This document shows positions 58,024 through 62,630 of a stretch of DNA of 64,000 bases, piece by piece. Source of the DNA: Candidatus Sulfopaludibacter sp. SbA3 (GTDB lineage Bacteria; Acidobacteriota; Vicinamibacteria; Vicinamibacterales; UBA2999); the NCBI GenBank assembly GCA_945903265.1, contig CAMDNQ010000012.1, positions 1 through 64,000 on the forward strand. Reading direction: 5' to 3'. The notes under the pieces were generated by a model. The model did no database searches. It saw only the letters and a list, made by a program, of their open reading frames with translations, and was not told where the DNA came from. The position numbers and the translations under genes are program-made. The first letter of the stretch is position 1. Each line of letters opens with the position of its first letter.

Positions 58024-59848
58024 AGCTGGCGCACTCCCCGTCCATCACTTCGGGCGTGAATGCCTCGGTTTCGCCAAGGTCGATGTAATCGGCCGGCGTC
58101 AACTCGTCCGGAACGACAGTCGCGAGGTCCTGCAGCACGTCGGTCGCTGCAGCCGGGCCGATCCGCCGGTAGAACGCGCCAAGCGACTCCTCAGCAACCC
58201 GCTGCTGCCGATACAGGCCAATCAGGCGATCGAGTGCGTCTGTCAGACGATTGACCGGCACCTTCGACACGACCTTGCCGAACTGGGCGCCATCGCTGTT
58301 CACGCCGCCTCCGACCAGCACGAAGTACTGCGGCACGGCACGTCCACCGACTTTGCGAACGCTCCCTTGGAAGCCGATCCCGGAGATGTGGTGCTGACCG
58401 CATCCGTTCGGGCATCCGCTGATCTTGATGTCGCCTGACGGGACGGCATCCACGAGCTCAGGATGCGCACTGAGATACTCGGTCAGGATGCGCCCGAGTC
58501 CCCGCGACTGCGTCACGGCGAGACGGCAGCTTTCCGCGCCAGGGCAGCTCGTGACATCGGCCACCGTTCCCGCATCGCCGGCACCGAGATTCGCAGCGCG
58601 GAGCCGCTCGTAGAATGCGGACACCAGCTTGACCGGCACCCACCGGAACAGAATGTTCTGGTCGATCGTCAACCTGACGGTGCCATCGCTGTAGGCTTCG
58701 GCGAGGTCGGCGATGACCTGCGCCTGGCCGGCAGTGAAATCGCCGAGCGGGAGCCGGGCCGTCACCATCACGAAGCCCGCCTGCCGCTGCTTCCGGACGT
58801 TGTGCCTCGTCCAGCGCACGTAGCCATCGGGCAGGGTCTGGAGTTGTACCGTCCCCGGCATGATCCCGGGGCCGGACACGGGGCTCACGGCCAGCGCTGC
58901 GGCCATCTGCGGCGTCAGCGGCGCCGGCTTCGGCCAGTCTGGTGCCTCTTCAACCGGCGGTGCGGACGCGGGGAACGGCAGGCGGGCGCCTCCCTCCGCG
59001 CGGAACTCCGCCAGCGCCTCCTCGAACTTGGCGCGCCACGCGTCCCAGCCGAGCGACTTCATCAGGAACTTCATCCGGTTCCGCTGCGGGTGCTTCCGGT
59101 CGCCGTTGCGGTGGAAGACTCGCAGGACCGCTTCGGCCACGTCGAGCATCTCCTCCGCCGGGAGGAACTCGTACAGCACGGGCGCGTCGATCACCATGAT
59201 CGCGGTGCCGCCGCCGACGACCACCTTGAAGCCGCGCTTCCCGTCGACGATGCGCGCGTGCCAGCCGATGTCATGAATCGCCGCGACAGCGTGGTCTTCG
59301 GGGCATCCCTCGAACGCGATCTTGAACTTGCGCGGGAGCGACGCGGCGAGCGGATGCCTGAGGAAGTACCGTGTCAGCGCCTCGGCGTACGGAGTGACGT
59401 CGAAGATTTCGTTCTCGGCGACGCCCGAATACGGGCATGACGTGATGTTCCGGACCGAGTTGCCGCACGCCTCGCGCGTCGTGATGCCCGTTTCGGCCAT
59501 GGCCCGCATCGCGTCCTCGGCATCACTCAGCTTGACGAAGTGGAACTGGACGTTCTGGCGCGTGGTCACGTGGCCGAATCCGCGGGAGTAGCTGGTAGCC
59601 ACGCCCGCGAGCGACCGCAGCTGCGCGGATGTCAGGATGCCCTGCGGGACTTTCACCCGCAACATCTGGACGTCGTCCTGCCGCTGGCCGTAGGTCCCGC
59701 GCAGCAGGCGGAACTTCCGCCAGTCGTCGGGTGAAATCTCGCCGCGCTCGTACTTGCCGAGCACATCGACGAACTCGTCGATGTCGTGTTCCTTGGCGAA
59801 CCCCGTACGCGGACGGCCTACCGCCGTCGCCTGATCAATGACCGACAT
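58022..59848 (-). CDS. Ferredoxin-type sulfite/nitrite reductase (siroheme)
   Basis: Protein of 608 aa with the duplicated siroheme reductase fold. Cysteines for the 4Fe-4S/siroheme centre are TSCPGAESC (C-x5-C, near 434) and SGCPNGCGQH (C-x3-C, near 478). The family includes both assimilatory sulfite and nitrite reductases; the Cys-rich leader of the operon favours sulfite. Overlaps cysG by 14 bases. It supplies sulfide for cysteine synthesis. Confidence 0.85.
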   Translation of the reverse strand: MSVIDQATAVGRPRTGFAKEHDIDEFVDVLGKYERGEISPDDWRKFRLLRGTYGQRQDDVQMLRVKVPQGILTSAQLRSLAGVATSYSRGFGHVTTRQNVQFHFVKLSDAEDAMRAMAETGITTREACGNSVRNITSCPYSGVAENEIFDVTPYAEALTRYFLRHPLAASLPRKFKIAFEGCPEDHAVAAIHDIGWHARIVDGKRGFKVVVGGGTAIMVIDAPVLYEFLPAEEMLDVAEAVLRVFHRNGDRKHPQRNRMKFLMKSLGWDAWRAKFEEALAEFRAEGGARLPFPASAPPVEEAPDWPKPAPLTPQMAAALAVSPVSGPGIMPGTVQLQTLPDGYVRWTRHNVRKQRQAGFVMVTARLPLGDFTAGQAQVIADLAEAYSDGTVRLTIDQNILFRWVPVKLVSAFYERLRAANLGAGDAGTVADVTSCPGAESCRLAVTQSRGLGRILTEYLSAHPELVDAVPSGDIKISGCPNGCGQHHISGIGFQGSVRKVGGRAVPQYFVLVGGGVNSDGAQFGKVVSKVPVNRLTDALDRLIGLYRQQRVAEESLGAFYRRIGPAAATDVLQDLATVVPDELTPADYIDLGETEAFTPEVMDGECAS

Positions 59849-61184
59849 GCCTCACCTCGTCTCCTGTAGCCGCAGTGCGCGCCAATCTCGCCCGAATCTT
59901 CACCACTTCTCCGATCACCAGGACGCCCGCCGCGCCAGTTGGAGGTTCAGCGGCGCCCATCTGATCGAGCCGCCCGGTCCATACCCATTCGTCAGGCATC
60001 GACGCGCTGCAGACGATCGCCGCGGGTGTGTCCGGCCCCCAGCCGTGTCCTATCAACTGCGCCGCCAGCGACGCGCGGGCGCCAACGCCCATCAGCATCA
60101 CGATCGACAGCGAGTTGGGGCGGACCGCCCCAAGACTGTGATCGACCGTCGCGTCCGTGTGGCCAGCGAGCACGAGGAAGCCGGACGCCACCCCGCGATG
60201 CGTGATGGGAATCCCCGCCATTTCCGGCGCCGCGATCGCGCTGCTGACACCCGGCACCACGTCGAACGGAATCCCCGCCATCGCCAGCGCCAGGGCTTCT
60301 TCCCCGCCCCGGCCGAACACGAACGGGTCGCCGCCCTTCAGCCGCACGACGCGCTTGCCCTGCTTGGCAGCTCGAATCATCAGCCGGTGGATCGTCTCCT
60401 GGGGCACGCTATCCCGCCGTGCCCGTTTGCCGACCGAGAAGCACTGGGCCTTCGTCGCGCGCCGAAGCGCATCGACATCGACGAGGGCGTCATACAGCAC
60501 CAGATCGGCCTGCTGCAGCCTTCTCACCGCCGCGACGGTCCACAGATCCGGATTCCCAGGCCCGGCCCCGACGAGAGACACACTCCCGGGATCGGGGATC
60601 CGGGATCGGGGATCCGAAGGCCGGATCCCGGGGCCCGCATCCCGGTAAATGTTGTTGAGCGCCTCCAGCAACTGCGGCCGGCGCTGCTCCATCGGCACGC
60701 CCTGCTGCTTCCACGCGGCCCGTGCCGCGTCCGCAGTGGCGAGCCACAGCGCCAGGTCCGGCGGCAGCATTGCGTCGATGCCTTCGCGCAGCAGCCCCGC
60801 AAGCGCCGGTGCGCGGCCGTCGGTCGAAATCGCGATGGTGACGCCATCGCGGCGCACGACGCCGCCAAGATACGCCGTCGCATGCCGCGGATCGTCCACC
60901 GCGTTCACGAAAATCCGTCGCTCGTCCGCCGCCGCCCGCACCCGCTCGTTGACGTCAGGCGGCGCCGCGGCGACCACCCACCAGGCGCCGTCGAGATCCG
61001 CCGGCTCGAATCCCCGGCGAACGATGGCCACGGACAGCTGCTCGATCTCCGGCACGACCTGAGGCGCCACGACAGTCACGTCGGCACCGGCAGCCAGCAG
61101 CGCCTCGAGTTTCGAGGCCGCCACGGGACCGCCGCCGACCACGACGGCACGACGCGACTGAAGATTCAGGAATGCTGGAAACAT
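59835..61184 (-). CDS. cysG: Siroheme synthase (CysG-type fusion)
   Basis: Protein of 449 aa. The N-terminal half (about 1-195) is precorrin-2 dehydrogenase/ferrochelatase (RAVVVGGGPVAASKLEALL at the start). The C-terminal half (about 202-449) is uroporphyrinogen III methyltransferase: VSLVGAGPGNPDLWTV, GDPFVFGRGGEEA and GVSSAIAAPEMAGIPITHRG. The linker (about 190-201) is encoded by a GGATC-rich repeat. ATG at 61184 is chosen; TTG at 61199 would lie in the terminator U-tract. Makes the siroheme of the adjacent reductase. Confidence 0.92.
   Translation of the reverse strand: MFPAFLNLQSRRAVVVGGGPVAASKLEALLAAGADVTVVAPQVVPEIEQLSVAIVRRGFEPADLDGAWWVVAAAPPDVNERVRAAADERRIFVNAVDDPRHATAYLGGVVRRDGVTIAISTDGRAPALAGLLREGIDAMLPPDLALWLATADAARAAWKQQGVPMEQRRPQLLEALNNIYRDAGPGIRPSDPRSRIPDPGSVSLVGAGPGNPDLWTVAAVRRLQQADLVLYDALVDVDALRRATKAQCFSVGKRARRDSVPQETIHRLMIRAAKQGKRVVRLKGGDPFVFGRGGEEALALAMAGIPFDVVPGVSSAIAAPEMAGIPITHRGVASGFLVLAGHTDATVDHSLGAVRPNSLSIVMLMGVGARASLAAQLIGHGWGPDTPAAIVCSASMPDEWVWTGRLDQMGAAEPPTGAAGVLVIGEVVKIRARLARTAATGDEVRHVGH
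60588..60615. repeat. Heptameric repeat (GGGATCS) in the cysG linker
   Basis: Four units alternating GGGATCG and GGGATCC, followed by an inverted GGATCCCGGGGCCC stretch. It encodes part of the inter-domain linker (RPSDPRSRIPDPGS) without disrupting the frame. Confidence 0.85.
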
Positions 61185-61189
61185 GCGTC

Positions 61190-61225
61190 TAAAAAGCAAA
61201 AAGCCCGGGTGTCTGTCCCGGGCTT
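61190..61225 (-). terminator. Attenuator terminator before cysG
   Basis: Minus strand: AAGCCCGGG (61225-61217), loop of seven, CCCGGGCTT (61209-61201), then TTTGCTTTTT. Perfect 9-bp stem and U-tract ending seven bases before the cysG ATG. A terminator directly in front of a gene, not after one, implies conditional read-through. Confidence 0.92.
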
Positions 61226-61295
61226 CGATCCTGTTCGTGTTTGGGCTTTTCTACGAGTGACCCGCACGGACCGCAAGCGCCGGGACTTGGGTCCC
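61215..61295 (-). promoter_or_regulatory. Competing RNA stems of the cysteine attenuator
   Basis: Segment 1 GGGAC (61295-61291) can pair with segment 2 GTCCC (61286-61282). Segment 2 as GTCCCGG (61286-61280) can instead pair with segment 3 CCGGGAC (61221-61215), which includes the 5' arm of the terminator. Pairing 2:3 destroys the terminator. Segment 1 begins three bases after the last leader Cys codon, so a stalled ribosome would cover it. Confidence 0.75.
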
Positions 61296-61334
61296 CCGAC
61301 AACACGCGCAGGCGCATCCGCACATCTTGAACAC
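61251..61334 (-). CDS. Cys-rich leader peptide of the cysG-sulfite reductase operon
   Basis: Short reading frame of 27 codons from GTG 61334 (24 from an in-frame ATG at 61325). The ATG-onward sequence begins MCGCACACCRG, with five Cys codons in nine, then TQVPALAVRAGHS and TAG at 61253-61251. GTG is preferred because the -10 box ends eight bases upstream, fitting a leaderless start. It lies between promoter and terminator and ahead of cysG. Similar polycysteine leader peptides are known in mycobacteria as cysteine-responsive attenuators. Confidence 0.78.
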   Translation of the reverse strand: MFKMCGCACACCRGTQVPALAVRAGHS

Positions 61335-61342
61335 GATGAGTG

Positions 61343-61372
61343 ATTTTACAGCGGCAAACCCCACAGGGTCAA
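61343..61372 (-). promoter_or_regulatory. Promoter of the cysG-sulfite reductase operon
   Basis: -35 TTGACC (61372-61367), 18-bp spacer, -10 TAAAAT (61348-61343). One of the best sigma70-type promoters in the window. It starts five bases after the thrC stop codon and drives the Cys-rich leader. Confidence 0.82.
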
Positions 61373-61376
61373 ATAG

Positions 61377-62630
61377 TTACGCCCGTGCGGCGGCGGGCTG
61401 GGAGGCCTGCGGTGCCAGCGCGCGCTCGAAGTCCGCCAGGCTGCGTCCGATTCTGGTCGGCTGGGCGACCCGCCCCATCATGACTTCGGCGGTCTTGTAG
61501 CCATTGCCGGTGATGCAGACCACGACGGACTCATTCCGCTTGATCACGCCCTGCGCAATGAGTTTCCGCGTGACCGCCAGCGTCGTGCCGCCGGCAGGCT
61601 CGGTGAAGATGCCCTCCGTCTGCGCAAGCAGCTGAACGGCATCCAGAATCTCGGGGTCGGTCGCCGAAGCGCCGGCGCCTCCCGTCTCGTGGACCACTTT
61701 GACGACCTGGAATCCGTCGGCCGGATTGCCGATCGCCAATGACTTCGCAATCGTGGCCGGCTTGACGGGCTCAGGGAATTCCAGCCCGGCGTCCAGCGCG
61801 TTGATCACCGGCGACGAACCCGCAGGCTGGGCGGCGTGGATCTTCGGCAGCTGGCCGCTGACCAGCCCGATTTCACGCATCTCACGGAATCCTTTGTAGA
61901 TGCGCGGCAGGAGCGTTCCCCCGGCGACCGGTGACACCACATGGTCCGGGAAGCGCCAGCCAAGCTGCTCCGCGATCTCGAAGCCCATCGTCTTGGCGCC
62001 CTCGGCGTAGTACGCGCGAAGGTTGATGTTGGCGAACCCCCACCCATACCGATCGGCGATCTGCGTGCACAGACGGTTGACGTCGTCGTAGTTCCCCTCG
62101 ACCGCCACGACGTGCGGCGCGTAAATCGCGGCGCCCAGGACTTTCGCGGGCTCCAGATCGTGCGGGATGAAGACGTAGCACGGAAGCCCGAGACGCGCGG
62201 CGTGCGCGGCGACGCTGCCGGCAAGGTTGCCGGTGGACGCGCACCCGAACACCTGGAACCCGAGTTCCACGGCGCGGGTGGCCGCAATCGACACGACGCG
62301 GTCCTTGTACGAGAACGTCGGATGGTTGACTGAGTCGTCTTTGAGATACAGCTCGTCGACGCCGAGCTCACGCGCCAGACGGGTCGCCCGCACGAGCGGC
62401 GTGAAGCCGGAGTTGAAACCGGTACGCGGCTCCTCGACCGGCAGCAGTTCGAGATAGCGCCAGAGCGACCGCGGACGCGATTCAATCACGCTCCGGGTCA
62501 TGACTTTCTTGACCGCGGCGTAGTCGTACGAGACTTCAAGTGGGCCAAGGCAGTCAGCGCAGACCCACAGCGCTTCTGCCGGATACGTCGCGCCACACAG
62601 GTGGCAGGTCAGGCCCGCGACGAATTTCAT
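61377..62630 (-). CDS. thrC: Threonine synthase
   Basis: Protein of 417 aa, PLP-dependent. An N-terminal zinc ribbon (CHLCGATYPAEALWVCADC) precedes the fold. The PLP Lys is in TFSYKDR (about 110). GCASTGNLAGSVAAHAARLGL and ETGGAGASATDPE are characteristic. Converts O-phosphohomoserine to threonine. Overlaps thrB by four bases. Confidence 0.93.
   Translation of the reverse strand: MKFVAGLTCHLCGATYPAEALWVCADCLGPLEVSYDYAAVKKVMTRSVIESRPRSLWRYLELLPVEEPRTGFNSGFTPLVRATRLARELGVDELYLKDDSVNHPTFSYKDRVVSIAATRAVELGFQVFGCASTGNLAGSVAAHAARLGLPCYVFIPHDLEPAKVLGAAIYAPHVVAVEGNYDDVNRLCTQIADRYGWGFANINLRAYYAEGAKTMGFEIAEQLGWRFPDHVVSPVAGGTLLPRIYKGFREMREIGLVSGQLPKIHAAQPAGSSPVINALDAGLEFPEPVKPATIAKSLAIGNPADGFQVVKVVHETGGAGASATDPEILDAVQLLAQTEGIFTEPAGGTTLAVTRKLIAQGVIKRNESVVVCITGNGYKTAEVMMGRVAQPTRIGRSLADFERALAPQASQPAAARA

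Follow-up and report, generated by a model that had tools for sequence, protein, structure and literature searches.

The minus-strand region from 61372 to 61191 of the window (the whole stretch of DNA analysed, 64 kb in length) comprises a promoter and a leader which very probably control cysG and the adjoining reductase gene by ribosome-mediated transcription attenuation, as predicted from sequence and RNA folding, with charged tRNA-Cys as the likely signal. Judged by comparison with relatives, the attenuator architecture is conserved and covarying, and the predicted mechanism is very likely. Further sulfur-assimilation genes, both in this genome and elsewhere in its order (probably Vicinamibacterales, phylum Acidobacteriota), are by the same kind of comparison preceded by the same leader layout.

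The poly-Cys leader between thrC and cysG

Direct reading of the minus strand bears out most of what an earlier note had described at this place (Table 1): the -35 and -10 boxes (TTGACC and TAAAAT) with their 18-nt spacer, a leader frame of 24-27 codons with five Cys codons, segment 1 (GGGAC) beginning three bases 3' of the last of these, and a 9-bp terminator stem with T-tract, the 5' arm of which contains CCGGGAC, followed by the cysG ATG (6 nt past the end of the T-tract). The shorter version of the frame (24 codons) would use an alternative start at ATG 61325, three codons in. Segment 2 had been delimited too narrowly: GTCCCGG is present as described and complementary to CCGGGAC at 61221-61215, but the pairing region extends to 61269, the adjacent conserved block pairing as well. 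The terminator hairpin GAAGCCCGGG/CCCGGGCTTT has 9 Watson-Crick pairs plus one G-U pair and a predicted energy of -17.9 kcal/mol.

On the two strands of the 64 kb, just two frames of 10-55 aa reach 4 or more Cys within 8 residues, and only that of the leader also combines a TANNNT motif 5-12 nt upstream with a GC-rich 8-bp hairpin and T4 within 120 nt. A search of positions 60000-62500 against Rfam yielded no family at gathering score; a sub-threshold microRNA match lies elsewhere than the leader.

The naming of the downstream genes as cysG and sulfite reductase stands for the former, which carries both expected domains, and only in part for the latter, which is NirA-like and remains below the curated cut-offs. 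Its product is likely an assimilatory sulfite reductase, the role in sulfite reduction being deduced from the neighbouring cysG since its own matches are below cut-off. Besides ThrC, ThrB is also above its NCBIfam cut-off in the window.

Table 1 Features of the leader and of the genes around it
Feature	Position	Strand	Basis or remark
-35 box TTGACC	61367..61372	minus	read from sequence
-10 box TAAAAT	61343..61348	minus	sequence; 18 nt spacer from -35
Leader frame VFKMCGCACACCRGTQVPALAVRAGHS	61251..61334	minus	GTG 61334 gives 27 codons; TAG ends at 61251
Five Cys codons TGC, TGC, TGC, TGT, TGT	61299..61322	minus	sequence; presumed regulatory
Segment 1 GGGAC	61291..61295	minus	pairs with GTCCC of segment 2
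Segment 2 GTCCCGG (61280-61286) plus conserved block GCGCTNNCGGTC (GTCCCGGCGCTTGCGGTC)	61269..61286	minus	sequence and comparison
Segment 3 GATCGAAGCCCGGGAC	61215..61230	minus	antiterminator partner and terminator 5' arm
Intrinsic-terminator-like hairpin 3:4	61200..61226	minus	fold and comparison
T-tract TTTTTGCTTTTT	61191..61202	minus	sequence
cysG, siroheme synthase N-terminal domain plus uroporphyrinogen-III methyltransferase	59835..61184	minus	NCBIfam cysG_Nterm and cobA_cysG_Cterm above cut-off; ATG 61184
NirA-like sulfite/nitrite reductase hemoprotein, 608 aa	58022..59848	minus	NCBIfam matches below equivalog cut-offs
thrC	61377-62630		NCBIfam ThrC above cut-off; leader sits between thrC and cysG

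Recurrence before sulfur-assimilation genes

A covariance model (R1) built from seven cysG leaders matched in 88 of the 162 genomes of the order at E <= 1, a loose threshold. Of 75 R1 places examined, 68 hold a short frame in which 3 or more of 10 residues are Cys, a count which is partly circular because R1 itself contains Cys codons; the seven matches without such a frame (L097, L098, L099, L101, L106, L107, L109) were counted as misses. The first frames downstream fall into a CysD/CysH group of 29 members linked by a common domain, CysG (21), TauE/SafE (7), two putative sulfate exporters of YeiH type (L079, L087) and small remainders. These groups were obtained by single-linkage clustering with blastp, and the frames in them had been called mechanically, some of them poorly. 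Representatives of the main groups were identified as sulfur genes. The earlier note had proposed a search for the leader in related genomes, and it was indeed found before cysD, cysH, cysG, TauE/SafE and YeiH-type genes, with the Cys codons kept. Poly-Cys leaders were also seen before a RimK-like ATP-grasp gene (L093, one of the small remainders; L248 and L256 are assigned to it because their first residues are similar) and, by eye, before a cysteine synthase-like gene (L253) and a putative binding-protein gene (L260).

With a second model (R2), the genome of the window shows three strong matches, before cysD, cysG and a YeiH-type gene (E 8e-22, 2e-18 and 7e-13, respectively); the next full-length match has an E of 0.06. 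Across the phylum, R2 matched in 108 of 396 genomes at E <= 0.01. Spread beyond the class, considered on this basis, is not claimed, since many of the listed outside matches are confined to the final third of the model and none of the three outside-class loci opened (L254, L258, L259) has a poly-Cys frame. Among loci L226-L260, which comprise strong and weak matches from the own genome and the phylum, a poly-Cys frame together with a GCCCGG-type arm is present in 21 of 35 and absent in 14; of three same-class loci, L246 and L247 have both and L243 does not.

Not every cysG is preceded by a leader. The CysG search matched in 39 of 43 genomes of the family, and 22 cysG loci, those with the CysG N-terminus, were listed. 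The leader is located immediately upstream in seven of these, the window included (L001, L002, L003, L010, L012, L017, L018), and in three others (L022, L023, L024) a related leader precedes a small gene in front of cysG. The remaining 12 listed loci are without a leader directly upstream: in eight, cysG closely follows thrC (L004, L005, L006, L011, L014, L015, L020, L021), in three it follows another gene, cysH-like by eye (L007, L008, L019), and in L009 a leader is found farther upstream. At least genomes G036, G028 and G019, in which cysG lacks the leader, have one before cysD or at the start of the CysD locus (L050, L051, L066/L200).

Loci were also chosen by the CysD protein alone, the leader model being unused. 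CysD matched in 74 of the 162 genomes of the order, and the 30 best matches were taken as loci, 29 of them with upstream sequence. A frame of 10-55 aa that has 4 or more Cys within 8 residues lies within 500 nt upstream in 18 of these 29, compared to 9 of 2900 dinucleotide shuffles and to 5 of 580 control stretches taken from the same loci. In G034 and G035 the leader is 0.7-0.85 kb upstream of cysD, before another gene.

An in-frame start codon is found at the same model-anchored place in 48 of the 68 leaders (GTG 36, ATG 11, TTG 1); 14 leaders have no start at this place and 6 have one outside the Cys frame. An exact TANNNT motif precedes the start by 4-13 nt in 28 of the 48 anchored leaders, as opposed to 1 of 48 at 20-29 nt, and by 7-10 nt in 24, while 20 have no exact TANNNT; an SD-like sequence is present in only one of the 48. 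Promoter and start positions of this kind suggest leaderless translation of the leaders. In the window, the start is probably GTG 61334, 8 nt after the -10 box, and is predicted to be near-leaderless as in mycobacteria.

Competing helices and predicted switching

A single hairpin followed by a T-run was reported by script for 67 of the 68 leaders, the exception (L096) being cut by a contig end; in L083 the script took the wrong hairpin, and a fitting one is seen there by eye. Pairing between segments 2 and 3 is specific to the individual leader: across 66 leaders, the own duplex has -20.3 kcal/mol compared to -18.9 (sd 0.29) when partners are swapped within gene classes, with 0 of 5000 swaps reaching the own value. 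The difference is clear for cysG (-20.2 vs -17.3), TauE (-22.2 vs -19.9) and the remainder (-19.3 vs -17.1), and weak for cysD (-18.7 vs -18.0, run lengths being equal at 5.57) and cysH (-22.0 vs -21.7). Matching segment 2/3 pairs include GTCCCGG/CCGGGAC, GTCCCCG/CGGGGAC, TCCGGGC/GCCCGGA and CTTCCCG/CGGGAAG as well as GGCCCCGG/CCGGGGCC and GCTTCCGGGC/GCCCGGAAGC.

In an alignment (A6) of 46 of the 68 leaders, 85.1 % of the 2:3 cells pair (18-50 % upon sliding) and 33 cells are changed on both sides, compared to 17.1 in shuffles (0/500 reaching the observed value); two of five measures were less extreme, the number of pairs with a double change being reached by 38/500 shuffles and that of pair types by 7/500, all such shuffle counts for the helices being no probabilities because shuffling ignores relatedness. 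For 1:2 plus 3:4, 92.2 % of the cells pair (slid 27-68 %), with 44 changed on both sides versus 16.0 in shuffles (0/500). The share of cells paired likewise exceeds that of every one of the 500 shuffles, both for 2:3 and for 1:2 plus 3:4. One column pair of 2:3 (77:166) is unpaired in 23 of 44 leaders. Columns 61-73-170-182 link all three helices and read AUAU in 14, AUGC in 5, GCGC in 4 and GCGU in 4 of 46 leaders; all three pairs are kept in 30 of 46, and GCAU, which breaks 2:3, is found in 6 of 46. According to these alignments, helices 1:2, 2:3 and 3:4 are mutually exclusive and covary. Helices 1:2 and 2:3 are placed such that a stall on the Cys codons would free segment 2, the cysD and cysH leaders being weak by the swap comparison. 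Covariation in segments 1-3 had been named beforehand as a check, and both the Cys codons and the 2:3 complementarity proved to be conserved in relatives, with coordinated changes.

The block GCGCTNNCGGTC on the 3' side of segment 2 recurs in 50 of 68 leaders if up to 2 mismatches are allowed (5 of 68 with one shuffle each), in 45 of the 50 at 18-22 nt past the Cys run. It pairs with the bases just 5' of the terminator (GAYCG..), so that the antiterminator has some 15 pairs. In the 48 leaders usable for this extended antiterminator, 20 of the 68 having been left out for weak or missing anchors, 79.9 % of the cells pair versus 77.7 % after permutation (0/1000; slid 25-59 %), and 29 cells are changed on both sides versus 14.7 (0/1000).

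Equilibrium folding of the window RNA supports the switch proposed in the earlier note, in which a stall covering segment 1 lets segment 2 pair with the terminator arm. The predicted terminator probability is 0.85 with the leader bare. Masking the RNA up to 7, 10 and 13 nt past the Cys run, roughly as far as we estimate a ribosome halted at the final Cys codons to reach, lowers it to 0.01, 0.00 and 0.09, respectively; from 16 nt on it is 1.0. The exact edge of the mask matters, since values of 0.17 and 0.98 are obtained with the edge at 0 and 4 nt. Taken as a test of switching in general, equilibrium folding works for the window and some other leaders and fails for most. Over 66 leaders, the mean terminator probability is 0.95 bare, 0.82-0.84 from 0 to +13 and at least 0.97 from +20 (0.96-0.98 for shuffled linkers). 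If segment 1 is masked while the complete terminator is available, the terminator wins in most leaders, about 10-12 of 66 being below 0.5 at +7 to +13, so that switching in most of them would have to depend on kinetics; in L047, L100 and L110 (3 of 66) the terminator is below 0.5 even when bare.

Nascent RNA was represented by ending the RNA before segment 4 and scoring upstream pairing of the segment 3 arm in the 66 leaders. This pairing amounts to 0.71 bare and 0.85 at +7 to +10 (above 0.5 in 66/66), and drops to 0.45 at +20 and to 0.32-0.34 once segment 2 is masked (shuffled linkers 0.60-0.64). Such folding shows segment 2 to be the predicted partner of segment 3, and separates the bare (0.71) from the stalled state (0.85) only modestly; in the window, the arm is paired at 1.0 both bare and masked to +13, i.e., without separation.

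On this basis, transcription would start at the GTG or within about 3 nt of it, and a ribosome would initiate on the near-leaderless poly-Cys frame. With ample Cys-tRNA, the ribosome would pass segment 2, helix 1:2 could re-form behind it and 3:4 would terminate transcription before cysG. When Cys-tRNA is scarce, the ribosome would stall on the last Cys codons with its footprint over segment 1, and segment 2 with its extension (GUCCCGG..GCU..CGGUC) would pair with GAUCG..AGC.CCGGGAC. Formation of 2:3 would block the terminator, and cysG-sir would be transcribed. Counted against an attenuator is the position of the stop codon some 17-30 nt past segment 2, i.e., beyond this segment, in contrast to the layout of E. 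coli trp.

Alternative readings and related leaders

The original study of the mycobacterial poly-Cys leaderless short ORFs is reportedly that of Canestrari et al. in 2020. These ORFs share with the present leaders contiguous Cys codons and a place before cysteine-metabolism genes; they are leaderless, as the present frames are predicted to be or nearly to be, and are described as acting by translation attenuation (PMC13236596, PMC9094748, PMC9031893). Accordingly, a stall could free a downstream ribosome-binding site which the hairpin otherwise occludes, no termination being involved. The T-tract ending just 6 nt before the cysG ATG would agree with this, as would poly-Cys frames without terminator before cysD elsewhere in Acidobacteriota (L117, L119 Terriglobus albidus, L124 Edaphobacter lichenicola; L121 by eye). 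For the leaders of the order such control appears improbable, since the hairpin with T-run is reported by script in 67 of 68 (one misplaced, L083) and the first frame past the hairpin begins at varying distance, from overlapping to more than 300 nt by mechanical start calls. Whereas the mycobacterial ORFs are described as acting on translation and not through an intrinsic terminator, a terminator-like hairpin and a covarying antiterminator are present here.

Less probable still is a functional small peptide, binding thiols or metal, as the product of the Cys-rich frame, with the terminator merely marking a gene end. Its C-terminal half (VPALSV-like) is similar in many leaders, but a peptide-level reading of this half was rejected on the frame of the block GCGCTNNCGGTC relative to the Cys codons, which is 0 in 37, 1 in 10 and 2 in 3 leaders; occurrence in all three frames indicates that RNA rather than peptide is kept, and both the sulfur genes as targets and the covarying helices speak against the peptide as well. 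Where a structured leader with a terminator precedes sulfur genes, it often belongs to the S-box or T-box class, yet a ligand-binding riboswitch or tRNA-sensing T-box in place of a translated sensor is similarly hard to credit, as the sensor-like feature is a translated Cys run kept with TGT/TGC exchange among the leaders compared and Rfam gives no gathering-score match over the leaders: in ten representative loci, the sole match was Acido-Lenti-1 RNA, far from the leader (L123:5750-5795, at gathering score).

Transcription attenuation being the preferred reading, the leaders may be compared with known systems of this kind. In common with trp-type attenuators and with leuL2, trpL1 and ilvL of Streptomyces lividans, which are leaderless attenuators (PMC8079986), they have leader codons, competing hairpins and a predicted intrinsic terminator, the known examples responding to amino acids other than Cys. 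As in the trp type, a short frame before a biosynthetic operon contains consecutive codons for the amino acid that the pathway yields, and a terminator recognised by sequence and fold (67/68, one misassigned; 3:4 covaries) precedes the first gene. The uORFC-8-2 motif of Rhodobacterales likewise joins Cys codons in an upstream frame to a terminator, with ribosome-mediated read-through attenuation proposed; it occurs exclusively before cysS and has two tandem Cys codons usually at positions 14-15 (PMC8632094). The leaders described here, in contrast, precede assimilation genes, the first genes being of the cysG, cysD, cysH, TauE and YeiH types, and their Cys runs start near the promoter. Candidate cys leader peptides of Actinobacteria, another phylum, also have runs of Cys codons before cys operons, but differ in that no conserved terminator hairpins are reported for them, Rho being suggested instead (PMC1262725).

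In the open-access literature searched, no description of such leaders in Acidobacteriota or of this combination of features was found, and within this literature the remark made at the outset, that poly-Cys attenuators are known from mycobacteria and perhaps not from this type of bacterium, holds. The individual parts are of known kind; the regulon-wide reach concerns a phylum in which none was found described. As a tentative, quite possible generalisation, one may speculate that sulfur assimilation in Acidobacteriota is a ribosome-read regulon, in which near-leaderless poly-Cys translation, and not a cysteine-sensing transcription factor, sets termination before genes for sulfate activation, sulfate/sulfite reduction and sulfite/sulfate transport, reached separately from mycobacteria and with the output switched between transcription and translation within the phylum. 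If true, a little-studied phylum would gain its cysteine regulation, unannotated short frames (three in this genome) would become sensors, and attenuation through Cys codons would prove to have arisen as a solution more than once, its possible outputs numbering at least two. With their three covarying and mutually exclusive helices, the 46 to 66 natural leaders compared would form a good set for studying near-leaderless translation-transcription coupling.

Further leader types may exist elsewhere in the phylum. In a CysD alignment scan of named genomes, a poly-Cys frame lies within 1 kb upstream in 7 of 15 acidobacterial loci (L112-L125, L127) and in none of the other 65 loci, four of which (L140, L147, L172, L177) have less than 330 nt of upstream sequence. 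Before cysD, L118, L120, L123 and L125 have Cys-rich leaders with CCCACC..GGTGGG-type terminators, their sequence being unlike that of the window's leader. Complements to the terminator of 6-7 nt occur past the Cys run in these four Terriglobia-type leaders (joint 1/2000 shuffles); since swaps among the four reach 7 and 8 and a convincing 1:2 helix was not found in them, a switch of this type is a lead only. Shorter or sparser Cys frames precede cysD in L117, L119 and L121. These frames and that of L124 are short and near-promoter with CCC or CC runs, no terminator being found behind them, and possibly represent translation attenuation within the same phylum. By eye, L122 has a frame with a single Cys (MKISSLRIARCQRQLGIR) beside a -10-like GATAAGCT some 270 nt before cysD, which may be another kind of leader. 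Upstream of cysD in L114, L115 and L116, where a poly-Cys frame was not found, similar CTAT-GACA-like stretches are instead seen by eye near the start, perhaps representing a protein-bound operator.
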